DNA of 64,000 nt, taken from contig NZ_CAJGYV010000001.1 of NCBI RefSeq assembly GCF_904846055.1, positions 992,001 through 1,056,000 on the forward strand. The letters are read 5' to 3'. Below, piece after piece: positions 3,873-64,000 of this stretch. The notes beneath the pieces were generated by a model that had not been told where the DNA came from, ran no database searches, and worked only from the letters and a program-made list of their open reading frames with translations. Made by a program: the position numbers and the translations under genes. Position 1 is the first letter of the stretch; the number at the start of each line of letters is the position of its first letter. Origin of the DNA: Psychrobacter ciconiae. GTDB lineage: Bacteria; Pseudomonadota; Gammaproteobacteria; Pseudomonadales; Moraxellaceae.

Positions 3873-4715
3873 ATGAGCAATGCTTGGCTTGATAGCGTAA
3901 ATTTTAATAAAGATGGGCTAATTCCAGCCATTGCCCAAGATGCTGATTCAGGTCGCGTTTTGATGGTGGCTTGGATGAACCGCGAGGCGCTACAACTGAC
4001 CGCCGATACCAAAACGGCGGTTTATTTTTCGCGCTCGCGGCAACAGCTTTGGCATAAAGGCGAAACCTCGGGACACACCCAAATTGTCCATGAAATTCGT
4101 CTTGATTGTGACGCGGATGTGATTGTCTTGCAAATCACCCAAATCGGCGGCATTGCTTGCCATACGGGTCGTGAGTCCTGCTTTTATCAGCGTTTAGAAT
4201 TAAGCGGTGACGCCCCGACTTGGCAAGCGGTCGATGAGGTATTAAAAGACCCCAAAGAAATTTATAGCCATTCTGATGAGCAAAACACAGCCCATATTAA
4301 GACACAAAAAACATCAAATCTGTCGCAAGAAAGCGCCCTAAAAAATAGTATTTTGCAGCAGTTGGATGCGGTGTTGTCTGAGCGCAAACACGCGGCTGCG
4401 GACAGCTCATATGTGGCAAGCTTATACGCTCGCGGCTTAAATAAAATCCTTGAAAAAGTGGGTGAAGAAGCGGTTGAAGCGATTATTGCCGCAAAAGATT
4501 TAGCCGTTTGCCAAAATAAAGATAACAACAAAAATGACCATGGCAATGATTTTGCAGAGGCGCGTCATGAATTAATTTATGAAGTGGCGGACGTTTGGTT
4601 TCATACGCTTGTTGGCTTGGCTTGGTTTGATATCTCCTCTGATGAGGTTACCCATGAGCTTGGTCGCCGCTTTGGGCTGTCAGGGCTTGAGGAAAAAGCC
4701 AATCGAACGTCTTAA
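3873..4715 (+). CDS. hisIE: Bifunctional phosphoribosyl-AMP cyclohydrolase / phosphoribosyl-ATP pyrophosphatase
   Basis: Catalyses steps 2 and 3 of histidine synthesis. The N-terminal HisI domain (about residues 1-120) shows [28 protein letters not shown] and the zinc-site region [13 protein letters not shown]. The C-terminal HisE domain shows [20 protein letters not shown] and [15 protein letters not shown]. Between them is a polar linker of about 50 residues. The frame is open from 3804; I prefer the ATG at 3873 (MSNAWLDSV) because GGAA stands 6 bases before it and the family begins there. No other his gene is in the window. Confidence 0.93.
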
Positions 4716-4751
4716 GTTTGATATTGCTGCTTGATAAGACAATGATTGAAA

Positions 4752-4780
4752 TTACTTTTTGCCCTAAAGCACGTTATAAT
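4752..4780 (+). promoter_or_regulatory. Probable tatABC promoter
   Basis: A perfect -10 box TATAAT at 4775-4780 with a weak -35 (TTACTT, 4752-4757) at 17 bases, about 65 bases before tatA. It is the only good candidate between hisIE and tatA. Confidence 0.5.
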
Positions 4781-4844
4781 AATCCCACGGCTATTTTGAT
4801 AAGTAAAACCTAGTTTTGCTTATATTATTAACAAGGATAAAAAT

Positions 4845-5099
4845 ATGGGCGGCTTTTCGATTACCCATTGGCTGATTTTGCTGGTGGTGGTGGTGGTGGT
4901 ATTTGGCACTTCCAAGCTTAAAAATGCCGGAAAAGACTTGGGCGGCGCGGTCAAAGGCTTTAAAGATGCGGTCCGCGATGAAGAAAGCGATCACCAAAAG
5001 CGCCGTGTTCTTGACCATGACCGCGAGGCGCTAACGCCAAAAGAAGGCACGCGGGTTGATGATATTAAGGTAACCACGTCTGATGACGACAAGCTTTAA
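4845..5099 (+). CDS. tatA: Sec-independent translocase subunit TatA
   Basis: 84 residues. Forms the oligomeric pore of the twin-arginine export system in the inner membrane. The N-terminus [19 protein letters not shown] is the single membrane helix, followed by the [24 protein letters not shown] amphipathic helix typical of TatA, then a charged tail. The membrane helix is encoded by consecutive GTG codons at about 4881-4900. First gene of tatABC; 28 bases separate it from tatB. Confidence 0.96.
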
Positions 5100-5127
5100 G
5101 CCATCATTATTATGACGTGGTTGAGCT

Positions 5128-5751
5128 ATGTTTGATATTGGATTTTCTGAGCTGCTGATTTTTGGCATTGTGGCTTTGGTGGTTTTGGGACCGGAAAAGC
5201 TGCCAAAAGCGGCGCGAACTGCAGGTCAATGGTATGGCAAATTGCGCCGAACGGTGAGCACTTTGCAATCTGAGATTGAAGCGGAGCTTGATTTGGCGGA
5301 GACTCGGCAACAATTAAAAGACGAGCTTGCCAAAATCCGGCAAACTGAAGCCGAAATGCGTTCTGAGATGGCAAGAATGCGCGGCAGTATTCACGAGATG
5401 GAAGCCGCCAGCCGTCAACATCAAAGCCAAAACCAAACTACCGCACCGCAATTTGCTGATAATAACAAAGGCGGCGGCAAGCACGCCGCGCCAACGGCTG
5501 ATTATTCCTATCACCAAGGCTCACAGCCAACATCGAGCGCCCCTGATAATGACCATCAATCCAATCTTAAAGCGGACATCGCCGAAGCAGACGATTGGCT
5601 TGCCACCAAACCTTGGGAAAATATGTGGTTTAAGCTTGGCGATTATGACAAAGCAAGACGACTGCCACCGGCGCCAAGGTTGCCCAATTATCAAGCAGAT
5701 ATGTTGCTGAGCGCTCAACGATTAACTCAATCATCATCGGGGGATAAATGA
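5128..5751 (+). CDS. tatB: Sec-independent translocase subunit TatB
   Basis: 207 residues. Partner of TatC in the twin-arginine signal receptor complex. It starts MFDIGFSELLIFGIVALVVLGPEKLP, the TatB membrane helix plus the GPEKLP hinge, followed by a long amphipathic/coiled-coil helix (residues about 30-105) and a low-complexity Gln/His/Ala-rich tail of about 100 residues. The length is above the E. coli protein (171). Its end overlaps the tatC start by 4 bases (ATGA), so the two are translationally coupled. Confidence 0.95.
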   Translation: MFDIGFSELLIFGIVALVVLGPEKLPKAARTAGQWYGKLRRTVSTLQSEIEAELDLAETRQQLKDELAKIRQTEAEMRSEMARMRGSIHEMEAASRQHQSQNQTTAPQFADNNKGGGKHAAPTADYSYHQGSQPTSSAPDNDHQSNLKADIAEADDWLATKPWENMWFKLGDYDKARRLPPAPRLPNYQADMLLSAQRLTQSSSGDK

Positions 5752-6530
5752 CCCTGATAAAACGTCCCAAACCAAAAAAATCGCCGCCCAAAGAAGATAT
5801 TTTAGAGGGCGATATGCCCATCACTGAGCATTTGATCGAGCTGCGGCGCCATTTGATTAAGATTTGCGTGGCGATTTTGGTAATATTTTTGGCGTTGGTG
5901 GGGTTTTCACGCGACCTTTACGATATGTTATCAACGCCTTTGGTCGCGCAATTGCCCGTTGGCGCTACGATGATTGCCACCGACATTACCGCCAACTTTA
6001 TGGCGCCGATTCGCTTGACCATTTTTGTGGCGGCGTTTATCGCCATGCCGTATGTGCTTCTGCAAATTTGGTCGTTTGTCGCGCCCGGGCTTTATCAAAA
6101 AGAAAAAAAGGTCGCCATTCCGGTGCTGCTGTCTTCGATCGTGCTGTTTTATTCGGGGGTGGCGTTTGCTTACTTTGTGGTACTCAAAGGCGTTTTGCGC
6201 TTTTTTATCACTTTTGCGCCCAAAAATGTGCTGCCGATGACCGACATTGACAGCTATTTAAGCTTTGCCCTCAAACTGTTTATGGTATTTGGGCTGACCT
6301 TTGAGATTCCGGTAATTACCTTGCTCTTGATATTGGCAAATATCGTCACCATTGAGAGCCTTGAGGACAAGCGGCGCTATATTATCGTCGGCTGCTTTGG
6401 GGTGGCAGCGATTGCTACGCCGCCTGATGGGGTGTCCATGCTGATGCTTGCCATTCCGATGTGGCTGTTATTTGAGCTTGGACTGCTGTTAGCAAAAATT
6501 TTGATTAAAGATAAGTCAGCGGTAAGCTAA
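5748..6530 (+). CDS. tatC: Sec-independent translocase subunit TatC
   Basis: 260 residues, six predicted membrane helices. Recognises twin-arginine signal peptides. Family marks: MPITEHLIELRRHLIK near residue 25, the segment SFVAPGLYQKEKK around residue 110, GLTFEIPVITLLL (the conserved Phe-Glu of helix 4) and the end region AIATPPDGVSMLMLAIP. A short Lys/Pro-rich N-terminal extension precedes the first helix. Last gene of tatABC, followed by the terminator at 6612. Confidence 0.97.
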   Translation: MTLIKRPKPKKSPPKEDILEGDMPITEHLIELRRHLIKICVAILVIFLALVGFSRDLYDMLSTPLVAQLPVGATMIATDITANFMAPIRLTIFVAAFIAMPYVLLQIWSFVAPGLYQKEKKVAIPVLLSSIVLFYSGVAFAYFVVLKGVLRFFITFAPKNVLPMTDIDSYLSFALKLFMVFGLTFEIPVITLLLILANIVTIESLEDKRRYIIVGCFGVAAIATPPDGVSMLMLAIPMWLLFELGLLLAKILIKDKSAVS

Positions 6531-6611
6531 TTTTTGATTTAGCTTATTTAGCCATTCCATTATTTAATTAAGCCCCTTTTTAATTTTCCTTTTAATTTTT
6601 TATTGCCAATG

Positions 6612-6638
6612 AGCCATTGATTCATCAGTGGCTTTTTT
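6612..6638 (+). terminator. Intrinsic terminator after tatABC
   Basis: Stem AGCCATT / AGTGGCT (6612-6618 with 6627-6633, one G-T pair), 8-base loop, then a T run. It lies 80 bases after tatC and before the helicase gene. Confidence 0.65.
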
Positions 6639-6676
6639 GCTTGATTGCAGCGTTGGCAGATGCTAGGTGAAAGCTG

Positions 6677-8176
6677 ATGATGACCGCTTCGATGCCCGCG
6701 TATATGACCGACCCAACCGAGGAGCAGTTGGCGGCGCTCAACATGGCGATGGATAGGCAGTCGTTTAAGATTGTGGCGTATGCTGGCGCCGGCAAAACCA
6801 CGACGCTCAAACTTATCGGCGAGCGGCTTCGCGGTCGTGGGCTGTATTTGGCATTTAACAAAGCCATTGCCAGTGAAGCTCAGCAAAAATTCCCGCCGCA
6901 TGTGGATTGCCGAACGTTTCACTCGCTGGCTTACCGTCACGTATCGCGCGATATCACCGCCAAGCTTGCCCTGCCACGATTTTCGCCAAAGCGCTTGGGC
7001 GATGATTTGCGATTGCAGCCCGTTCAAATCCGCCGAAACATGGATGGGGTGAATAAATTTGTCACCTTAACGCCTGCCAAACTTGCGCGAATGGTGAGCG
7101 ATTCAGTCAGTCACTTTTGCAGCACCCACGCCAGCTACCCCGCCCCGCGCCATATTGAGCTGCCCAAATGGATTGACCAAAATGACGCCGACCAACTTCG
7201 CGAGATGCTGTTTCCGGCGGTTGAAAAACGTTGGCTGCAATCAATTGACGCTCGTCATCCGGCAGGAATTGGTCATGATATTTATTTAAAACTTTGGGCG
7301 CTGTCCAAACCTAATATCCCTGCCGATTTTATTTTATTTGATGAAGCTCAAGATGCTGACCCTCTAATGATGGGGATTTTAACCCAGCAGCCACGGCAAG
7401 TAATTTATGTCGGCGATGCCCATCAGCAAATTTATGAATGGCGCGGCGCAGTAAACGCGATGAAAAAATTGCCACTTCCGCAAACATTATTGACCCAGTC
7501 GTTTCGCTTTGGTGAGCCAATTGCTGACGTTGCCAATACCTTGCTTAAAGCCTTGCAAGAAGACGTTCCATTAAAAGGCAATCCCAACCGCGATTCAAGT
7601 ACCGAATCAGGACTGGTGAATGCTAAAAAAGACGCGATACTTTGCCGAACCAATGCCGCCGCGATGAATCAATTGTTGATTGGGCTAAAGCTTGGTCACC
7701 GCGTCGCACTACAAGCGGACACCGACCGAATGCTGAAGTTTTGCCAAGCGGCGGAAAACTTAAAAAACGGCAAATCGGCTTATGGCGTCCCTGAGCTGGC
7801 TTATTTTTACAACTGGTCGGACGTTCAAGAATATTCTGAAACGAGCGAAGGCAGCGATTTAAAAACACTGGTAAAACTGGTCGATGACCACGGCACCAAT
7901 GTGCTAGCCCAAGCGGTCAATAGCTTAACGCAGATTGAAAACGCCGATTACGTGATTTCAACGGCGCATAAAGCCAAAGGTCTTGAATGGTCGCGGGTCA
8001 AGCTTGATGACGATTTTTATTACGACACCACCGCCAATAGCGTAAAAATCACCCCTGAAGAGCTTCGGCTGCTTTATGTGGCTTGCACGCGGGCGCAAAG
8101 CAATTTGGACTTTCAAAACATTCAAGATTTGATTGTCGGGCTGCAATCCGGCAAAAAAGTCATTTATGGCAATTAA
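6677..8176 (+). CDS. UvrD/Rep-family ATP-dependent DNA helicase (short, superfamily 1)
   Basis: 499 residues with the SF1A motif set: Q-like start (DPTEEQLAAL), motif I AYAGAGKTTTL near residue 35, motif Ia (LYLAFNKAIA, TFHSLAYR), motif II FILFDEAQDADPL, motif III YVGDAHQQIYEWRG, motif IV TQSFRFG, motif V STAHKAKGLEW and motif VI LLYVACTRAQ. It is much shorter than UvrD (about 720) because the 1B/2B insertions are reduced, as in the F-box-helicase-like group of bacterial UvrD proteins. An AGGTGA site 6 bases before the ATG at 6677 supports the start. The role is probably DNA repair or recombination; the exact pathway is unknown. Confidence 0.88.
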   Translation: MMTASMPAYMTDPTEEQLAALNMAMDRQSFKIVAYAGAGKTTTLKLIGERLRGRGLYLAFNKAIASEAQQKFPPHVDCRTFHSLAYRHVSRDITAKLALPRFSPKRLGDDLRLQPVQIRRNMDGVNKFVTLTPAKLARMVSDSVSHFCSTHASYPAPRHIELPKWIDQNDADQLREMLFPAVEKRWLQSIDARHPAGIGHDIYLKLWALSKPNIPADFILFDEAQDADPLMMGILTQQPRQVIYVGDAHQQIYEWRGAVNAMKKLPLPQTLLTQSFRFGEPIADVANTLLKALQEDVPLKGNPNRDSSTESGLVNAKKDAILCRTNAAAMNQLLIGLKLGHRVALQADTDRMLKFCQAAENLKNGKSAYGVPELAYFYNWSDVQEYSETSEGSDLKTLVKLVDDHGTNVLAQAVNSLTQIENADYVISTAHKAKGLEWSRVKLDDDFYYDTTANSVKITPEELRLLYVACTRAQSNLDFQNIQDLIVGLQSGKKVIYGN

Positions 8177-48597: not shown

Positions 48598-48688
48598 GGT
48601 GAAGTGGGTGAGTGGCTGAAACCGCACGCCTGGAAAGTGTGTATACGTTCATAGCGTATCGAGGGTTCGAATCCCTCCTTCACCGCCA
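48598..48688 (+). tRNA. tRNA-Ser (anticodon GGA)
   Basis: 91 bases including an encoded CCA end. Acceptor arms GGTGAAG and CTTCACC pair over seven positions, discriminator G. The anticodon stem-loop CACGC-CTGGAAA-GTGTG gives anticodon GGA. A long variable arm (TATACGTTCATAGCGTAT-like) and the T arm GAGGG-TTCGAAT-CCCTC are typical of class II tRNA-Ser. The integrase gene stands 283 bases downstream, and the 3' half of this tRNA is the probable island attachment site. Confidence 0.97.
48661..48688. other. Probable attachment site (left island end)
   Basis: P4-type integrases use the T-arm to 3' end of tRNA genes as attB, and the segment from GAGGGTTCGAATCC to CCA is the likely crossover region. 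The tRNA is intact, so the island carries the restoring copy. The matching direct repeat at the other end was not found in the window and should lie to the right of 64,000. Confidence 0.6.
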
Positions 48689-48834
48689 ATCTTATGAAAT
48701 CCTAGTTTTCCGAAACATTCCTACCCCATCCCAAACATCCCTTAATCCCTTGCAATATATAGCTTTCAGGCTGTATAACTGCGTTTCTGTTTTCCGAATT
48801 TGTCCTAAAGAACCCTACCTATCCCTGCTCTTGT

Positions 48835-48971: not shown

Positions 48972-50333
48972 ATGTTAAGCGACGCCAAGATTCGTAAGCT
49001 TAAACCGACTGAAAAATGCACGCCATCGCGCCCTGATAAATATTCTGACCAAAATGGTTTGCAGCTTTTGGTTCGCCACTCAGGCACAAAAACATGGGTC
49101 AGCGCGTACCGCTTTGCTAATAAACAAAACCGAGTCACGCTTGGCACTTATCCTTTGATGTCACTTGCTGAAGCTCGAAAAGCTAATACTGATATAAAAG
49201 CGCTGCTTGCTGAAGGGATCAATCCTAAGCTTAAAAAACGTCAAGACAGGCTCGATAATGAGCAAGCTCAGCTGTTTAATGATTATGCGCTAGCGTGGCT
49301 TGAAGAGCGTAAAAGAAACGTCAAACCGCGAACCTACCAGCAAGATTACAACCGAATGCAAAAAGACGTCCTCCCCTGCTTTGAAAATATCGCTTTAAAG
49401 GATGTAAGCTTTGAAGACTGTAAAGTGATGGCTGATCGCATTGAGAAACGCGTAAACGCAAATGGTGAGCCGCCACGTGAGGTTACCAGACGAACCATTG
49501 ACTTAGTTGCCAACATTTTAAAAAGTGCCAAACGGGAGCGCTTAATCGAGCAAAATCCGATAGAGGATTTAAAAGAAATTTATCCTAAAGCAAAAACTCA
49601 GCACATGAAGCATGTCGAATTAAAAGAGTTGCCAAAGCTGCTTCAGGATATTGAAAACTATCATGGTCATGATCAGACGCGCCTTGGCATGAAATTTCTT
49701 GCTTACTCATTTTGCCGAACGATTGAGCTTCGTATGATGAAGTGGGAGCATATTGACTTTCCAAATAAGCTTTGGCGCGTTGATATTGACAACCTAAAAT
49801 CAGGACGTAAGCACGTCGTTCCTTTATCAAACCAGATGCTTGCCGTGTTGGAAGAGATGAAACCCATCACAGGGCATTATGACTACGTGTTCTTTAACAC
49901 TGGAACACGTCAGCCTTACAGTGAAGAGTTTATTAATAACGCGCTGGATATCTTAGGCTATGCAGGCAAGCAAACAGGTCACGGCTTTCGCCACATTGCC
50001 TCAACTAATTTAAACGAGCTTGGCTATATGGGCGATGCCATTGAAAAGCAAATGGCTCACGATAAAAAAAGCAGCATCCGAGCGGTCTATAATCACGCTC
50101 AGCATTTAGAGGAGCGCCGAAAGATTATGCAGGTTTGGGCAGATTTTTTAGATTTGCTCAGAGATAAGGGTGAGGTCGTCGATTTTCAGACAGCGCGTCA
50201 GCAGATTGAAGCGTCGCTACAAAGCCAATCCTCACCTAACTTGCAAAACGCTGACAAGCATGAGCTTATCAGCGCTTTGATGGAAAAGGGGATCACTATA
50301 GATGAAATCAAAGGTTTTTTTAAAAAGAAATAG
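48972..50333 (+). CDS. Tyrosine-type site-specific integrase, P4/CP4-57 group
   Basis: 453 residues. The N-terminal arm-binding domain (DUF4102; residues 1-90, KYSDQNGLQLLVRHSGTKTWVSAYRF) is followed by the core-binding domain (about 100-205) and the catalytic domain. Catalytic residues: Arg249 (FCRTIELRMMKW), His337 and Arg340 (HGFRHIAS), His363 (MAHDKK) and nucleophile Tyr373 (VYNHAQHLEERR), all present. A further C-terminal tail of about 60 residues ends in KK. Directs insertion into the tRNA-Ser gene and excision with AlpA. Confidence 0.95.
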   Translation: MLSDAKIRKLKPTEKCTPSRPDKYSDQNGLQLLVRHSGTKTWVSAYRFANKQNRVTLGTYPLMSLAEARKANTDIKALLAEGINPKLKKRQDRLDNEQAQLFNDYALAWLEERKRNVKPRTYQQDYNRMQKDVLPCFENIALKDVSFEDCKVMADRIEKRVNANGEPPREVTRRTIDLVANILKSAKRERLIEQNPIEDLKEIYPKAKTQHMKHVELKELPKLLQDIENYHGHDQTRLGMKFLAYSFCRTIELRMMKWEHIDFPNKLWRVDIDNLKSGRKHVVPLSNQMLAVLEEMKPITGHYDYVFFNTGTRQPYSEEFINNALDILGYAGKQTGHGFRHIASTNLNELGYMGDAIEKQMAHDKKSSIRAVYNHAQHLEERRKIMQVWADFLDLLRDKGEVVDFQTARQQIEASLQSQSSPNLQNADKHELISALMEKGITIDEIKGFFKKK

Positions 50334-50343
50334 TTTTATCTTT

Positions 50344-51297
50344 TTAGAGCTGATCAGCTTCATTGTCAATTAAATCCTTTAAATATTTCACTGGATCAAC
50401 ATTGTATGTTTTAGCCAATTTATTTAGCTTATTCTTATATTCAGATGTCAGTAATAGTTCCTGTGCGGACTCAATATCTTTTTTATCTCTAAACTTTTTT
50501 TGGCTCCAAGCTTTACGCATTTTTGATATTATTAGTTGTTTATGAGCAGTAGGAGAATACACCTGATCAAGAGACCATATAGCATTTGAGTCTATAGCAT
50601 CTAAGCTAGCACAAATATGATTATATAAATCGCCATTTGTATATGCTATAAAATTATTTATTATTAACAAATTATTGTTTTTAAGATAGTCAACTGCCCA
50701 ATAAAGCTGTTCTTCATTTTCCTTATCGATCCAGTTCGTATTCTTTCGATCAGTTTTTATTATATTAAATATATTTCTTGCAAAGTTTAGATAATAGCTT
50801 TTCTTTTCTAGAGCAAAGTTCCTCATTGGATTTTGAATAAAATTTTGAGTGAAGATATTATTTTGCATTCCTTGATTGAAAGGCATATATGGCGCTGGAT
50901 TCGCGAGTATAGGTAGTGGAGATGATTGCTCTGCTACAAAAGATGAATCAATATTAAACATTAAATTTTCAAGCAATGTCGGCAAAGCTTGTATATTATT
51001 CTTTGGTACGTCATAAAATTGAGATTTACAGAAGTAAAATGAACACATCCATAGTAACGCTCTAACGTCCTCTTTCATCCAATCGAATAAGCTTTCATCA
51101 ATCATTTTGGACCTATAGAAATTTTTTATATCTTCTATTTTATTTGATTCTCTAGTATTCATATCTTTAATATTATTAAGTATAAGCTCTCTATTCGCTG
51201 GAAGTATTAGTGGATATCCATAAAATTTTAGAATATAAGCTATAAAATTTAGTTCTCTATTGCTAATTTTGTTAAGCCAGCTCTCTATATCCGCCAT
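50344..51297 (-). CDS. AT-rich island gene of unknown function
   Basis: 317 residues from the ATG at 51297 (MADIESWLNKI), convergent to the integrase with 10 bases between the stops. Not recognised. It is soluble and rich in Asn, Lys and Ile, with a Pro/Asn-rich linker in the middle (LPILANPAPYMPFNQG), a helical N-terminal half and a helical C-terminal half. Base composition is clearly more AT-rich than the neighbours, as for cargo genes brought in recently. By position next to the integrase it could be a defence or toxin gene, but there is no direct evidence. Confidence 0.7.
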   Translation of the reverse strand: MADIESWLNKISNRELNFIAYILKFYGYPLILPANRELILNNIKDMNTRESNKIEDIKNFYRSKMIDESLFDWMKEDVRALLWMCSFYFCKSQFYDVPKNNIQALPTLLENLMFNIDSSFVAEQSSPLPILANPAPYMPFNQGMQNNIFTQNFIQNPMRNFALEKKSYYLNFARNIFNIIKTDRKNTNWIDKENEEQLYWAVDYLKNNNLLIINNFIAYTNGDLYNHICASLDAIDSNAIWSLDQVYSPTAHKQLIISKMRKAWSQKKFRDKKDIESAQELLLTSEYKNKLNKLAKTYNVDPVKYLKDLIDNEADQL

Positions 51298-51713
51298 ATA
51301 ATATTCTCCAATATAAATATTCAATAAATTTTTTGATAATAATTGGCTTACATTATCATCTTTTTTTAGTACCTTTTAAAGACTATTTAAGTAGTATTTC
51401 TAGTGATAATTTAGTAATAGCAAACTCCTGAAGGCTATTAATATATAGATATAAAGTGTGATTTAGCATAGCATCTGATAAAGGAATATATAAGACCTTA
51501 ACTCTATTTTAAAATCTTACCACAGCTGCTGAGATTTTATATGTCGAAATCCTATCCCTAATAAGTTAGCTCAAGCGTTGCCTTAACAGGTTATTTATAT
51601 TATTACTTAACCTATCTTTCACTTGAGAGCAACCGCTCTCATTGCCCATCTCCTCAAATTTAAAAAATACAGATGGCACTACTCCTATGAACCACAACTC
51701 AAAGGAGCAAGTC
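51298..51713. other. AT-rich intergenic region with hairpins before the rep-like gene
   Basis: 416 bases without a gene. It contains two inverted repeats just before the rep-like gene: AGGTTA / TAACCT (51588-51613, 14-base loop) and GAGAGC-AACC-GCTCTC (51625-51640, a tight hairpin with a 7-bp stem if the flanking T-A pair is counted). Together with a Rep-type protein downstream these could be an origin or operator. Confidence 0.5.
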
Positions 51714-57600: not shown

Positions 57601-59247
57601 TTAGACGAGCTTCCAGACCTTGTTTTCAAAGTATATGATATTTTTCTTTTTCATTTTCTGCAGTAGATTCTTTACTTTATGAAATTTCTGCTCATCAGTC
57701 ATGATATCTGGCAGCTTATTAAATAAAAGTTTTTCAAAGTCTGAACGACTAGCCTGACCAAACTGCTTCAATAGTTCAATTACAGCTGCTTCATAATACT
57801 CCTCATTTAAACCTTTTAGCAGCATATACTCTGCTTGCTGATCGGTATGCTTAGCAATATCAGCCGCAATCATATAGCTATTTTTTCGCCCTTCGATAAG
57901 CGACTTTTTTCGCAACGCGTCAGCTTCGTCTTCAGTGATCGCCTGCCCTTTTTGAACTTTATCCAGCGCTATGATGTCATGCAATGTGAGATTGTCAACG
58001 GTAGCTAATTTTTTTGCATACTCTTGATCTAGCACTTTACCCGTGATTTTTACACGTACCCTTTCATGAGTTAAGTCATAATCTGGCAAAGGAAAAAAGC
58101 GCTTACGTTGAATCTGATACATTTTTTTGATGCCACTACCGATGGTGTCCATCATATTTAGATTAACCATAGCATTGACCAAAAACGGATTACGGTAGCT
58201 TGTTTCGGGCGCATCCTGCAATAGGACATTTTCAATCGTCTTAGGGATAAACTCGCCGCTGTTTTGAAACAATAGCGTTGAGTCCTCTTTTTCGACGACG
58301 GTGATACGACCACCAAGGCGATAGTCTTGATGACCAATAGCATTGCTTAACGCTTCACGAATGATGTAAGGATCGTATTGTTTCACCTCTTCAGGAAATA
58401 AAGATCCAGACGCCATGTAGCGATAATTGAGGTTACGGATTTTTTTATACACGTCGTCTAGGGCTAATAAAAATGGTGATGAAAAATGCTCATAGTCTTT
58501 TTCAATCCCATCGACACCCTTTAAAATCCAAGTGATATGCGCTTGAGCTGGGCTTAGAAAATACGTGGACTCTGGAAGACCTAGTAAAATAATTGCGGTG
58601 TTGGTTATCTGACCACGAATGGTGATTTTAGCTTTATTCAAGAAAGTGATGTCGTCCCAATCTTGAATGTCTTCAGCCAGACGCTTATTTTTATCCGCAA
58701 AGACTTGTCTGGCAACCGCAATGGCATGAGGATCAAGATCTTCAAGCGCTGCCTCGTAGCAAATCTCGGCACTCCAGTCATCGGCTTGGTTTTGCCACAG
58801 CTTACGGCTTTGATCAGGATAGTGTTTGAGCAGTTTTGTGACGCTACCAATACGAATATAAGGCTCATGCAAAAAGCTGACAGGCGTATCAGTAGCTGCG
58901 GGGATTTCAAATAGCACTACGGCTTTACCATCGATCTGTAGCTCGTGAATGGTAAAATGAATTTTAGGGCTTAAACGCTCAATCAACCAATGCTCTAAGT
59001 CCTCATTGCCTTTTGCTTTTTTTGTCTTCGGGTTAAAGCTTGTGCCAACAATATCGTGCGTTTCATCTTCTACGCCAAAAACTAAGTAGCCAAATTTTTT
59101 ACCCGTTAAACAAGCGCCATTAGCAAGGGCAGATATCCGTTTGCCAATTTCTTCTGGGCTATGAAAATTGTGCTTAAATTCGAGCCATTCTTGTTCGGTT
59201 GGCTGCTGGATTAAACTTAGGATAAGGCTTTGGTAGTGATTGGACAT
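57601..59247 (-). CDS. AlbA_2 (Schlafen-type) ATP-binding protein
   Basis: 548 residues. The N-terminal AlbA_2/SLFN AAA_4 domain (residues about 15-130) has EWLEFKHNFHSPEEIGKRISALAN, GYLVFGVEDETHDIVGT and PYIRIGSVTKLL. A GHKL-type ATP-binding region follows (about 310-400: IREALSNAIGHQDYRLGGRITV, GSGIKKMYQIQRKRFFP), then a C-terminal winged helix (ELLKQFGQASRSDFEKLL). Such proteins are often wrongly called RecG-like helicases. They commonly accompany restriction systems. Third gene after hsdR on the minus strand. Confidence 0.87.
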   Translation of the reverse strand: MSNHYQSLILSLIQQPTEQEWLEFKHNFHSPEEIGKRISALANGACLTGKKFGYLVFGVEDETHDIVGTSFNPKTKKAKGNEDLEHWLIERLSPKIHFTIHELQIDGKAVVLFEIPAATDTPVSFLHEPYIRIGSVTKLLKHYPDQSRKLWQNQADDWSAEICYEAALEDLDPHAIAVARQVFADKNKRLAEDIQDWDDITFLNKAKITIRGQITNTAIILLGLPESTYFLSPAQAHITWILKGVDGIEKDYEHFSSPFLLALDDVYKKIRNLNYRYMASGSLFPEEVKQYDPYIIREALSNAIGHQDYRLGGRITVVEKEDSTLLFQNSGEFIPKTIENVLLQDAPETSYRNPFLVNAMVNLNMMDTIGSGIKKMYQIQRKRFFPLPDYDLTHERVRVKITGKVLDQEYAKKLATVDNLTLHDIIALDKVQKGQAITEDEADALRKKSLIEGRKNSYMIAADIAKHTDQQAEYMLLKGLNEEYYEAAVIELLKQFGQASRSDFEKLLFNKLPDIMTDEQKFHKVKNLLQKMKKKNIIYFENKVWKLV

Positions 59248-59356
59248 AGTTAGAAATATAATCAGTTAATAAAAGTGACAATCAATATACCATTAAGCTC
59301 TAACGGTCTATATTGATATATTTAATTTTTTAGCAAATTAAACTCTACTGATTATC

Positions 59357-60634
59357 TTATTTTGATGGTGGATTAGGGTTTGATAGTAACTGCTCTAATG
59401 GTGTGATTATTTCCCAGTTGTAAAAATAATCCAAGCAGTTCACAATCACAAAAATAATCAGAACAAGTACTAAGAACAAATATCCAGCATGTGTGATTAT
59501 TTTGACTTTAACAGGGGTAATCTCGGACTTCCATTTATCAAGCAGTGCATCAGGTATCTTATTATCTGCTACAAATCCATTAATTTGGCATCTCAGATGC
59601 CATAAATTATAGCCCTGCTGAAGTGTAGCGTATAGCACCATAACGCTATATATGAGAATTGAACCAATTACAAGACTGTTAACTTCAGCACTAAATTTTG
59701 CTATCGAAATAAGTGCAATAGTGATAGGTATAGCTAAAATTTGTGTTTGTAGGTTTGAGATTATCTCATTAGCTTTTTCGAGAAACTTCTCAGAATGCTC
59801 GGCAATCTTGTCATTAAATTTCGAAAATTTAAAATCATCTAGATAAAGGGCATATTTGGAAAGCACTGATTGGTACATACTTTCTATGTTTTGGAGTAAT
59901 GAAAATAACCTATCCTCTTTATCTAAACTAACTAGACTATCAATCATTATACTTGCAACAATAGTGTTTCTTTCAGTTTCGTGAACTAGAAGAGATTTTT
60001 TGACTTCATCATCATCGTTGTTGATATCTGCGTTTAACCAGCTAGTAAATTTTTCAATGATAGTACACAGATTGCCAGATTCTAAGCTGCTAGGTTTAGA
60101 AGCGTTTACCGAGTTTAGGTAAAGCTTAGCAATATCTAAGTAACGCTTAGTTTCTCTAGACATTGTTGGAATTTCACAGTGAGTCTGAGCAAAAATAACA
60201 ATCTGTTTGTTTTTAAAATAATACTGCTCTTTCAAGCAGTTAATAAATCTAAAAATTAACTCTAAGGCAGGTAGTAAAGTATTATCGCTACTGTTTTTAA
60301 AGTCATATTCATCTTGATAGACAATAACCTCATCAAAGCTAATATCATAACTATCGTTTTCAATAGCATTTTCAATATAGCTTTCGTATGAAGCATACTG
60401 ATCGCCAGTATCGACAATAGTTAAACTATAACTTATATTTTTATCTATCTCATAACGATCATCTTTAGTAGTAAACTTTGCAATATTCACAAAGTGCCCA
60501 GCTTCAAATGTTTGAATGAGCGTGATATCTTCCTGTTTTTCGAAAGTAAAACAACCAGTAATACGTTTACCAGAGAATTTAACACTCTGACTTCGTTTCA
60601 CTAAAGTTAAGACTTCATTACGTAGTTGGTTCAT
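59357..60634 (-). CDS. Membrane protein paired with the NdpA-like gene, unknown function
   Basis: 425 residues, not recognised. Residues 1-150 appear beta-rich and cytosolic, 160-295 helical with a coiled-coil stretch (SEKFLEKANEIISNLQ), and about three membrane segments follow near the C-terminus (about 298-314, 320-340, 379-402). The gene begins 8 bases after the stop of the NdpA-like gene, and its GAGG ribosome site lies next to that stop, so translation is coupled. A large soluble sensor part with a C-terminal membrane bundle is a frequent effector layout in abortive-infection systems. AT-rich. Confidence 0.75.
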   Translation of the reverse strand: MNQLRNEVLTLVKRSQSVKFSGKRITGCFTFEKQEDITLIQTFEAGHFVNIAKFTTKDDRYEIDKNISYSLTIVDTGDQYASYESYIENAIENDSYDISFDEVIVYQDEYDFKNSSDNTLLPALELIFRFINCLKEQYYFKNKQIVIFAQTHCEIPTMSRETKRYLDIAKLYLNSVNASKPSSLESGNLCTIIEKFTSWLNADINNDDDEVKKSLLVHETERNTIVASIMIDSLVSLDKEDRLFSLLQNIESMYQSVLSKYALYLDDFKFSKFNDKIAEHSEKFLEKANEIISNLQTQILAIPITIALISIAKFSAEVNSLVIGSILIYSVMVLYATLQQGYNLWHLRCQINGFVADNKIPDALLDKWKSEITPVKVKIITHAGYLFLVLVLIIFVIVNCLDYFYNWEIITPLEQLLSNPNPPSK

Positions 60635-60642
60635 TTGAACCT

Positions 60643-61896
60643 CTATTTAAATAGTTTTCTAACTGCTGGAAGATTCTCTAGGTTAACCTTTATTTCGATA
60701 AACGCCTCATCATTATCACCTTCTTTTAGCTTAACTTCTTCACCGAGTAAACTACGGCTACCACTAATTCTGAGAGTTTCATCGTCACCAATTTCACCAA
60801 GATCAAGAGAAAACATTTCATAATTTTGAAGTGGTTTTGTTGCAGGAGCAAAAATATTACTATTGTTTTCATCAGTTGCTGCATAACCGTTATTCTCTCT
60901 AAAGGCTTTAAAACTATCTTCAACCGCTATAGTTAGATTAGATAAGGTACTTTTAGTTGCTATTATTGGATCTATTTCATCAACAATATTGACACTTTCT
61001 TTGTTTTTAGCTTTATAACCAAGTAATGTAAGTACCTCACTTTGAATCTCTTTTTTTGACTTCTCATCAAATGGACTTTCATCAAGATAATTAATTAAAC
61101 TTTTCATTAGTTTAGTCGTTGCTACAGTATCATCAAGTCTAACCCTTATTGGTAAAAAGTCCTGAATATATTCAGGAATTTTACTGCTAGTTCCTTTTTG
61201 AATCCATTGTATATAGTTCTCAGACTTATAAGCGCTATCTGAGTTTTTGTAATTGTGATCTTTCAGTTTTGAAATATTGATCCGACAAGCAATCTTCAAG
61301 TTGGAAGCATCAATATGATTAGTATCTATTATTTCTCCTGTTTCTTCGTTTATAGTAATTGCGTCTTTCAGACTTAGTAAAGCAATATCAAGATATTCAA
61401 TACCATCTATTGTATAAAAAATCATTGGTAGATGATCACCAGTAGTCATATGTTCTTCATAAACATGATAATGCAAGGCCTTAGTAAGATGGTTAGTGAT
61501 GCGTCTATACCTTGTTTGTGCTGACGATTCCCGCCTTAACACTGATCTGTCTTCATCAGGTTCAGAGGGCACAGACACTAATAACTCCCAAGCAAATATG
61601 TTAGAAAAAGCGGCATTAGTAGGTTTTTTAAAATTTAAAAGCTTCAGATCTACTATACATAAGTAGTTAGATAGCACCTTTCCTAAAGTATCAGGACTAT
61701 CAAAAGCCTCAATATGTGAATGGGCTAAGCCATTTTTCTCTAATTGTTCATCAAGAAATTCAATTAATTTGCACACTTGTACACTATCGGCATGAAGATT
61801 TTTCCGAATCAATGGAGGCGTTACAGATTTCTGATGGGCTTCTTTGATAATCTGATGGATTATACTTGCTTGGACTACAGCTTTAGGTTGACTCAT
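60643..61896 (-). CDS. NdpA/YejK-like nucleoid-associated protein
   Basis: 417 residues. It resembles YejK/NdpA through the N-terminal helix set (IIHQIIKEAHQ ... LIRKNLHADSVQVCKLIEFLDEQL, residues 12-52), the core HLPMIFYTIDGIEYLDIALLSL ... TNHIDASNLKIACRINISKL (155-211), YIQWIQKGTSSKIPEYIQDFL (228-248) and the end LLGEEVKLKEGDNDEAFIEIKV. It is longer than YejK (about 335) by insertions near 85-130. Binding of nucleoid DNA is inferred. GGAG stands 5 bases before the ATG. It lies 128 bases behind hsdR and 8 before the membrane-protein gene. Confidence 0.72.
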   Translation of the reverse strand: MSQPKAVVQASIIHQIIKEAHQKSVTPPLIRKNLHADSVQVCKLIEFLDEQLEKNGLAHSHIEAFDSPDTLGKVLSNYLCIVDLKLLNFKKPTNAAFSNIFAWELLVSVPSEPDEDRSVLRRESSAQTRYRRITNHLTKALHYHVYEEHMTTGDHLPMIFYTIDGIEYLDIALLSLKDAITINEETGEIIDTNHIDASNLKIACRINISKLKDHNYKNSDSAYKSENYIQWIQKGTSSKIPEYIQDFLPIRVRLDDTVATTKLMKSLINYLDESPFDEKSKKEIQSEVLTLLGYKAKNKESVNIVDEIDPIIATKSTLSNLTIAVEDSFKAFRENNGYAATDENNSNIFAPATKPLQNYEMFSLDLGEIGDDETLRISGSRSLLGEEVKLKEGDNDEAFIEIKVNLENLPAVRKLFK

Positions 61897-62024: not shown

Positions 62025-64000
62025 CTAAGCTCTCATCTCATAAACACTATCGTTACCGCCTCTATAACTAGCAAAGATATGCTGATAGACTTCTGTTGCT
62101 TTAGTATCGACATCTTCATCACTATATGACTCTTGGGGTAGCCAAAGCAGGTTGTCATGGATAACTATCTTAATCTGAGCAATAACCTCACGGCTTTCTC
62201 GCCAGCGCTCAATATTTAGCTTTTCAGCTTTTAGTACGTCTAGTGTTTTCTTAGCCACTTTCTTCACTTCTTTGATGTCTTTCTTGCTCAGCTCCTTACC
62301 TTCAGTCAGTAAATCAAAAATCGCCAATACTTCCTGATCACCTAAGTTTTCTTTTACAGCTCTCTGCTCTTCAGCAGATAAGTCTTTAACAAAATCGTTT
62401 AGGTCATCAAAAACCTTAACCGTATTTTCTAGAGATTTACCTGCATTATAATCGTCTATTATTTCTTTATAACGCTCATAGAACTCAACCCTCGAAGGAT
62501 TTTCTTTCAGCATTTGCTTCAGCTTATTTTCAATAACTTGTTGCAGGGTGTAGGTGATCGTATTTTTTTGATCAGACTTAGCAAATGCGTCTCTTAATTT
62601 ATCAAAATCTAAATTGCTTAGGTCAATATAGATACCGTCTACATTATCACTTTGTTTGACACTGATACTATCACTCACCAAAACTTGTAGCTTTTGCATG
62701 ACTTCAGTGATATCAGCAGACTTGACGCTTTTATTGAGACGCTTATAAATAGCATCAATTGCGTTATGGTCTTTAGTATGAGCCTTGGCTTGCGGTTCAG
62801 GAAAAAGAGCTTTGTATTTTCTAAAAACATTTCTCGCCATAACTTCAAAGGTAGCGCGAGTGTTCTCGTTTAAACACACGCAGTTTTCAGCTTCTTGTAT
62901 TTTGCTTATCCTCATCATTGGGTTAGCACTCTTGAGAGATTCGAGATCAAAGCCTAGTGAGTGAAGATGCTTTGTCGTCTCTTCAATAGCGGCTCTAAGC
63001 TCTTCTTCTAGTTCAGATAGATCTGCTATTGGGCTATCAGTGCCCTCTCCCTTGCCTCCGCCACCAGTATTGCCACCTTCACCATATACAGAATAGGCTT
63101 TTTCTAGCTGCTCGTAGACATTACCATAATCAACAATTAATCCATTTTCTTTTTCATCATCATAGACACGGTTTGCCCTTGCTATGGTCTGCATCAAAGT
63201 ATGACCTTTGATTGGCTTGTCTAGATATACGGTAGAGACAGACTGAGCATCAAAACCTGTGATCCACATGGCACAGACAATCGCGAGACGGAACGGATTA
63301 TCAGGATCTTTAAATTCTTTTTCTAGGTCACGCTCTACTATTTTTTTACGATGAGTCGCGATGTCTAGTCCCAGTTTTTTAAACTTATCAACTTCATTTT
63401 GCTCACTACTGACTACAACACAAACCTCAGTTTCAGCAACTCTTTTGTATTTGCGGCGCAGCTCTTGAGCTTCTTGCAGATCCTCAGCGTCATCGATACG
63501 CTTTTGCAACTCGACCAGATATTCAGCCCAATAGCTTTTGATTAGATCATACATACGCACCGCAGTCGGCTTATCAAGAGCAACTAGCATGCCTTTACCC
63601 TGATAGCCACGCTCATTAAAGTGCCATACCAAATCTTTAGCAATGGTCTCTAATCGGGACTGTGCGGTTAATATGGGATAATTTTTACTGAATTTATAAA
63701 TGAGCTTTTGTCTTTGCTCCTCGTCTAAGTTCTCATCTTCTAGCGCTTCAGCCATCTTTTCATCGAGTTCTGGGTTATCGATCTCGAGTAGCTCGCCCTT
63801 ATTTAGATAATGCAGCGGTAACGTCGCCCCATCTTCGACCGCCCGTTTAAAATCATAAATGGAAACGTAGTCACCAAATATATTCTTGGTCAGCTCTTCT
63901 TCATCTTTGATAATCGGCGTACCCGTAAAGCCTAGGTATGAGGCATTGGGTAAACCATAAAAACGCATGTTACGCGCGTAGATTCCACCTTGTGTACGGT
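62025..64000 (-). CDS. hsdR: Type I restriction enzyme R subunit (HsdR), C-terminal part, cut by window edge
   Basis: About 657 residues are visible; the nuclease domain and the first helicase motifs lie right of the window. The visible part begins just after the DEAH box (RTQGGIYARNMRFYGLPNASYLGFTGTP, motif III), continues with motif V/VI AMWITGFDAQSVSTVYLDKP and LMQTIARANRVYDD, then a Gly-rich linker (GGNTGGGGKGEG) and the helical C-terminal domain that docks on HsdM. ATP-driven DNA translocation and cleavage. hsdM and hsdS are expected upstream, beyond 64,000. Confidence 0.94.
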   Translation of the reverse strand, partial: RTQGGIYARNMRFYGLPNASYLGFTGTPIIKDEEELTKNIFGDYVSIYDFKRAVEDGATLPLHYLNKGELLEIDNPELDEKMAEALEDENLDEEQRQKLIYKFSKNYPILTAQSRLETIAKDLVWHFNERGYQGKGMLVALDKPTAVRMYDLIKSYWAEYLVELQKRIDDAEDLQEAQELRRKYKRVAETEVCVVVSSEQNEVDKFKKLGLDIATHRKKIVERDLEKEFKDPDNPFRLAIVCAMWITGFDAQSVSTVYLDKPIKGHTLMQTIARANRVYDDEKENGLIVDYGNVYEQLEKAYSVYGEGGNTGGGGKGEGTDSPIADLSELEEELRAAIEETTKHLHSLGFDLESLKSANPMMRISKIQEAENCVCLNENTRATFEVMARNVFRKYKALFPEPQAKAHTKDHNAIDAIYKRLNKSVKSADITEVMQKLQVLVSDSISVKQSDNVDGIYIDLSNLDFDKLRDAFAKSDQKNTITYTLQQVIENKLKQMLKENPSRVEFYERYKEIIDDYNAGKSLENTVKVFDDLNDFVKDLSAEEQRAVKENLGDQEVLAIFDLLTEGKELSKKDIKEVKKVAKKTLDVLKAEKLNIERWRESREVIAQIKIVIHDNLLWLPQESYSDEDVDTKATEVYQHIFASYRGGNDSVYEMRA

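Follow-up and report, generated by a model that had tools for sequence, protein, structure and literature searches.

Gene content of the island

The DNA analysed here, which we call the window, is a stretch of 64,000 nucleotides from Psychrobacter ciconiae. It carries a pair of genes, designated A and B, on an island inserted at a serine tRNA gene (Table 1). Exactly as the preliminary description had placed them, the two open reading frames lie on the minus strand with a spacing of 8 nt, and both start codons are preceded by purine-rich stretches that, by eye, resemble ribosome-binding sites. The AT-rich composition ascribed to the pair was also found, with a GC content of 32.9%, the window as a whole having 44.6%. 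B is separated from the downstream AlbA_2 gene by an AT-rich gap (59248-59356) with an inverted repeat (atcaatata/tatattgat) that was noticed by eye and perhaps marks the end of the transcript; this repeat was not listed by the terminator scan.

Table 1. Features of the gene pair and of the island that carries it (positions in the window).
Feature	Position	Strand	Basis or remarks
tRNA-Ser(GGA), island insertion site	48598..48688	+	ARAGORN
30-bp direct repeat, left copy (3' end of the tRNA)	48664..48693	+	exact; right copy at 70893-70922 in extended coordinates
Tyrosine integrase of the island	48972..50333	+	Pfam Arm-DNA-bind_3, Phage_integrase
Schlafen AlbA_2 + HATPase_c_4 protein, downstream neighbour, outside the pair	57601..59247	-	Pfam
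Gene B, 425-aa membrane protein, second of the pair	59357..60634	-	ATG start; NCBIfam DS1_2, hydropathy, predicted model
Gene A, NA37/YejK-family nucleoid-associated-type protein, 417 aa, first of the pair	60643..61896	-	ATG start
HsdR, upstream neighbour, outside the pair	62025..64000 (whole gene 62025-65231, 1068 aa)	-	PADLOC REase_I, E 1.3e-78

The element measures about 22.2 kb between the exact 30-bp repeats, and its right end lies beyond the window (position 64000). Its core comprises genes for the integrase and for YagK/YfjJ-, DUF932-, YqaJ-, recombination-directionality-factor- (Gp3-like) and AlpA-like proteins, and its type I restriction-modification (RM) set is complete, with hsdR, hsdS, hsdM and a gene for an N6_Mtase + Methylase_S protein. 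The latter protein, of 600 aa, is encoded beside the separate hsdM and hsdS genes (68137-69939 in extended coordinates; L013:4137-5939). With the tRNA-Ser gene, the integrase, the 30-bp repeat and the full RM operon all in place, the earlier view of a tRNA-borne island behind a type I hsdR held.

Three related Psychrobacter islands encode A proteins that are 89, 79 and 74% identical and B proteins that are 85, 80 and 75% identical to those of the window. At L038 and L039 the hsdR that precedes the pair is about 96-98% identical to the window's, and at L041 the pair (74-75% identical) stands beside a type I system that is only 23-25% identical. Since the pair is kept at L041 next to a different type I RM system, it is a mobile module of its own and not tied to the hsd operon, and dependence on this operon was rejected on the same ground.

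The same island core was seen in related Psychrobacter strains with different defence cargo. Of the AlbA_2 neighbour, L039 has a whole copy and L038 a truncated one, and none was found in L041; the first 130 residues of the window's protein show a weak similarity to the PADLOC model PDC-S50 (E 2.9e-9). Beside the integrase, a 326-aa protein (50344-51324) has no Pfam match over the cut-off, and its positional counterparts in L039 and L041 are only weakly similar to it (40% over 70 aa and 26% over 166 aa, respectively). Positions 50344-51324 may thus be a second variable cargo slot.

Protein A belongs to the NA37/YejK family and has a predicted YejK fold

A had been described as a protein of the NdpA/YejK type, and both profile and predicted structure bear this out. 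It passes the Pfam NA37 model (PF04245) with E 3.6e-17 and 63.2 bits, against a gathering cut-off of 24.6, and its predicted fold is that of YejK. NCBIfam models for YejK (E 6.9e-23) and DS1_1_antiphage (E 1.1e-9) were matched as well, and all 37 of the A relatives compared match NA37. In the host genome, no NA37 gene other than A was found. According to work cited in PMC10561277, YejK binds double-stranded DNA and influences topoisomerase IV. A itself is acidic, with a pI of 5.35 (4.8-6.5 across 37 family members), unlike many DNA-binding proteins, which calls for caution in reading it as a DNA sensor; from this pI, DNA binding is neither shown nor excluded.

The long helix and TM1-TM2 hairpin are the most conserved part of protein B

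A cytosolic body with about three C-terminal membrane segments had been proposed for B, in agreement with what we observed in both hydropathy and the predicted model. Hydropathy peaks occur at residues 298-316, 320-338 and 383-401, near the C-terminus. The predicted model (pLDDT 78.6) has an N-terminal alpha/beta and helical cytosolic part, followed by a 50-residue helix (250-299) that runs into a TM1-TM2 hairpin (about 298-340), with TM3 at about 383-404. Across 39 B proteins, a crude hydropathy count gave two to six hydrophobic segments, with three in 17 of them. Measured as relative entropy, conservation amounted to 1.98 bits in the long helix and 1.84 bits in the TM1-TM2 hairpin, against 1.21 bits in residues 1-118. 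The long helix and the hairpin are therefore the most conserved part of B, a pattern that is as expected for a working membrane part combined with a variable input domain. Conserved single positions include H218, F268, P303 and Q340 in B, and H14 and Y243 in A. Structure comparison found no clear structural relative of the predicted B model, so that a pore cannot be argued from the fold.

A and B are kept together on mobile elements

Relatives were gathered from plasmids, phage records, genomes, IMG/VR and E. coli genomes. This yielded 94 full-length pairs, the window's among them, which form 47 clusters when B is grouped at 90% identity. A always precedes B on the same strand, and the gap between the two ranges from -50 to +27 nt; start sites were taken mechanically as those of the longest open reading frames, so overlaps between A and B are perhaps overstated. 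The 94 pairs remained from 98 paired A proteins after dropping pairs with an A of up to 250 aa or a B of up to 330 aa. Left out of the count were L134 as well as L001-L006, L009-L014, L019 and L020, these last being copies of the window, shorter copies of other loci, stretches of host chromosome, and L006. Homologous pairs elsewhere, which the preliminary description had proposed to look for, thus number 46 besides the window's own when redundancy is removed, which is more than chance would give.

The divergence of A was closely correlated with that of B (Mantel r 0.948, a value reached by 0 of 2000 permutations), which indicates that the two genes travel together. B occurred without A only at L009/L016 and L073 (contig ends) and at L029 (a 208-aa B remnant, 4526-5152). 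Broken copies were also seen: at L072 B is split over two open reading frames (5992-7201), and L126 carries a fragment of A (5558-6022). Among 52 NA37 loci on IMG/VR, 38 have B as the next gene, A being broken in one of them, and the other 14 lack B. The B-less group on these viral contigs consists of L113-L125 and L127. Three near-identical members, L120-L122, have an open reading frame just downstream that was recognised by eye as ribbon-helix-helix (RHH)-like, an arrangement that recalls NdpA2-TprA of PAPI-1. In a tree with 19 unpaired NA37 proteins (14 from IMG/VR and five genome loci), the paired A proteins all fall on one side of a branch; the paired or unpaired state requires one change on this tree versus a mean of 16.9 after shuffling, and the SH-aLRT support of the branch itself is only 60.

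The pair is rare among the genomes searched. Seven NA37 places were detected in 6 of 143 gammaproteobacterial genomes, with B present at two of them (the window's own and the second of G077). Relatives of B were found in 2 of 274, 4 of 390 and 3 of 369 genomes, in overlapping sets that include the window's own, and a species-representative collection gave five loci in one pattern-limited scan. A Klebsiella-phage pair was matched in 35 of 5,426 E. coli genomes, in 14 of these over at least 80%. The carriers include lambdoid and Mu-like E. coli prophages, plasmids, phage genomes and islands, and the 94 pairs in 47 clusters establish a conserved two-gene unit on mobile elements.

At six other loci, 8 of 10 neighbouring proteins matched PADLOC defence models at E up to 1e-5, namely GajA, GajB, QatA, PDC-S06, a DndC-like protein, two type I R subunits and a type I M subunit; these ten proteins were picked by hand and serve as an illustration, not as a rate. 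Together with the retention of the pair at L041 and its presence in E. coli prophages, these neighbours point to a cargo-like position.

The pair is a divergent relative of DS-1

The pair had not been recognised as a named system. Neither A nor B matches a PADLOC model at E up to 1, by which identity with a PADLOC system was rejected. For B, Pfam gave nothing at E up to 0.01, and a single NCBIfam family was matched, NF053869 (DS1_2_antiphage; E 1.9e-10, 40.5 bits). A matches the companion model NF053868 (DS1_1_antiphage) with 37.8 bits. Thus, both proteins are homologous to the DS1_1/DS1_2 models and are encoded together, and the nearest named relative is found there, but the scores reach only about an eighth of the equivalog cut-offs (37.8 against 330 and 40.5 against 315), by which identity with DS-1 was ruled out. 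Judged by these profile scores, the Psychrobacter pair is a divergent relative of DS-1 and not a DS-1 equivalog; the possibility that it would turn out to be an already named system was in this way half borne out.

The same holds more widely. At E up to 0.001, DS1_2 is the sole NCBIfam family hit by 46 of the 47 non-redundant B proteins (best E 3.3e-26), and DS1_1 is matched by 32 of 37 A proteins at the same threshold. The DS1_2 model had no match in any of 14 control genomes. Because DS1_1 also matches, below its cut-off, in an E. coli control genome, a match by A is not specific in itself, and in terms of sequence profiles it is B that provides the specific evidence for kinship with DS-1. 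E. coli prophage pairs scored 54-76 bits overall against the two models (A about 56-66, B 70-76), below the cut-offs, and are likewise not DS-1 equivalogs; the E. coli locus of DS-1 itself, the reference for gene order, was not found. All scored members of the collected set are below the cut-offs, and it contains no DS-1 equivalog.

DefensePredictor (Science 2026; PMC13092281) reported validated units named DS-n, and the YejK nucleoid-associated domain is listed among the domains newly validated in defence. Its main text does not contain the exact term DS-1, and no mechanism for the YejK-domain system was found there. On the basis of the names and the domain, the DS1_1/DS1_2 models of NCBIfam presumably represent system DS-1 of DefensePredictor.

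Possible modes of action

Homology to these models suggests a role in defence, and the anatomy of the proteins, together with analogy to known systems, suggests how the pair may work. We consider it slightly better than an even chance that A and B form an independent mobile anti-phage module of the DS-1 type, in which A senses DNA and B is a membrane effector, much as in Rex. A would be a soluble DNA-binding sensor, and a three-segment C-terminus would anchor B in the inner membrane, leaving the large N-terminal part of B in the cytosol. On encountering phage DNA or a replication intermediate, A would contact B and thereby alter the long B helix that runs into the TM1-TM2 hairpin. B would then disturb the membrane, and the infected cell would stop before phage are made. 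In Rex, the DNA-binding RexA activates the membrane protein RexB, and in RexABpp of P. putida a DNA-binding protein triggers membrane damage by its membrane partner (PMC12894663). We prefer this order because conservation in B centres on the membrane hairpin and its adjoining helix, and because many copies of the pair are prophage-borne, as Rex is. Direct evidence favours neither this order nor the reverse one, in which the membrane protein senses and the DNA-binding protein acts.

That reverse order corresponds to Kiwa, in which KwaA is a membrane sensor and KwaB binds DNA without cleaving it (PMC12904381). B would here be the membrane-embedded sensor or anchor, and A would coat incoming phage DNA at the injection site, preventing this DNA from being replicated and transcribed while the cell survives. 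The parts are of the same kind, a membrane protein and a DNA-associated protein in which no nuclease domain is recognised, the DNA binding of YejK fits such a task, and the variable cytosolic domain of B could dock A. Against this, hhalign comparison gave a probability of 0.6 for the A profile with one KwaB and of 0.2 for the B profile with one KwaA candidate (the gene upstream of a KwaB match), compared to 100 for a control NA37 protein, although these comparisons involved single sequences and have low power. Foldseek listed KwaB chains for A only at non-significant E values of 1.4 and 3.4, and a Pfam search with A at E up to 1 did not return the KwaB domain PF16162; the absence of KwaB from the 50 rows of the VIA list for A excludes nothing. 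Kinship with Kiwa was rejected, as homology of either protein to the one Kiwa pair compared was not detected. The lack of homology argues against a common origin and not against similar working, and we regard a Kiwa-like action as rather unlikely, though it is the nearest rival.

Improbable, in our estimation, is a third reading, in which A regulates a mobile element or modulates its topology with B as its membrane partner, and defence is secondary or absent. It draws on NdpA2, a YejK-family protein that acts with TprA in controlling PAPI-1 transfer (PMC8565334), and on the B-less fraction of the IMG/VR loci, including those with the RHH-like gene. The B-less NA37 proteins, however, fall outside the paired group in the tree, no RHH partner was found encoded with A, whose partner is the 425-aa B with its three hydrophobic segments, and NCBIfam labels the nearest models anti-phage. 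Moreover, the paired kind occurs in lambdoid and Mu-like prophages, plasmids and islands, elements so different that one regulatory job is unlikely. That the pair is an accessory of the adjoining type I RM operon seems hardly credible. In the window the pair does share a strand with hsdR and lies 128 nt downstream of it; it adjoins hsdR at L038 and L039 too, and has type I genes nearby in L015; yet its neighbour at L041 is the distantly related type I system described above, and no relative of the island's hsd genes was present in the stretches of L040, L042 and L007 that were compared.

Implications

Beyond this locus, NA37-membrane pairs might constitute a large and mostly unnamed class of membrane-linked anti-phage modules, an independent origin of the Rex/Kiwa layout in which a nucleoid protein of housekeeping type came to serve as a sensor or silencer of DNA, a proposal to which we give somewhat less than even chances. 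If true, there would be a new family of membrane effectors built on the conserved helix and TM1-TM2 hairpin, and DS-1 would be one small branch of it, with the Psychrobacter island pair among the most divergent. The name DS-1 dates only from 2026, in a text that appears to leave the mechanism of the system open (PMC13092281); its parts may now be suggested to belong to a wide, strictly paired family in several proteobacterial groups. In annotated records most family members are labelled as a hypothetical protein and a nucleoid-associated protein. The second protein of the pair is now defined, with a conserved core, the 47 pairs offer a naturally varied set, and the island with its exact ends shows that the pair can move apart from the RM genes. 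This makes a question testable: does a nucleoid-type protein trigger a membrane protein, as in the Rex order, or is a silencer brought to phage DNA, as in the Kiwa order?

Comparison with known systems

With YejK/NdpA (PF04245; PDB 9be2), A shares the fold described above, and it differs by a low-confidence insert near residues 82-107 and in being encoded together with B. With NdpA2-TprA of the integrative and conjugative element PAPI-1, the pair has in common a YejK-family protein on a mobile element, but TprA is an Arc-like RHH protein whereas the partner of A is a membrane protein. Kiwa (KwaA-KwaB; PF16162) shares the combination of a membrane protein with a non-nuclease DNA binder, and differs in that homology to A or B was not detectable in the one pair compared. 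The likeliest working analogy is with RexAB/RexABpp, which has the same layout of a prophage-type two-gene module for a DNA-binding and a membrane protein; PP_5644 of RexABpp is a four-helix membrane protein, while B combines a large cytosolic part with about three segments. The matches listed for the A model did not include RexA, and kinship is thereby neither shown nor excluded; by analogy, the pair would reach the logic of Rex with unrelated-looking parts. DS-1 is the system to which both genes are homologous, one partner being of the YejK/NA37 kind and the other without a further known family. The DS1_2 model has 337 positions compared to 425 residues in B, of which only 217-334 are aligned, and the host group, element and phage range of DS-1 may differ from those of the Psychrobacter pair.
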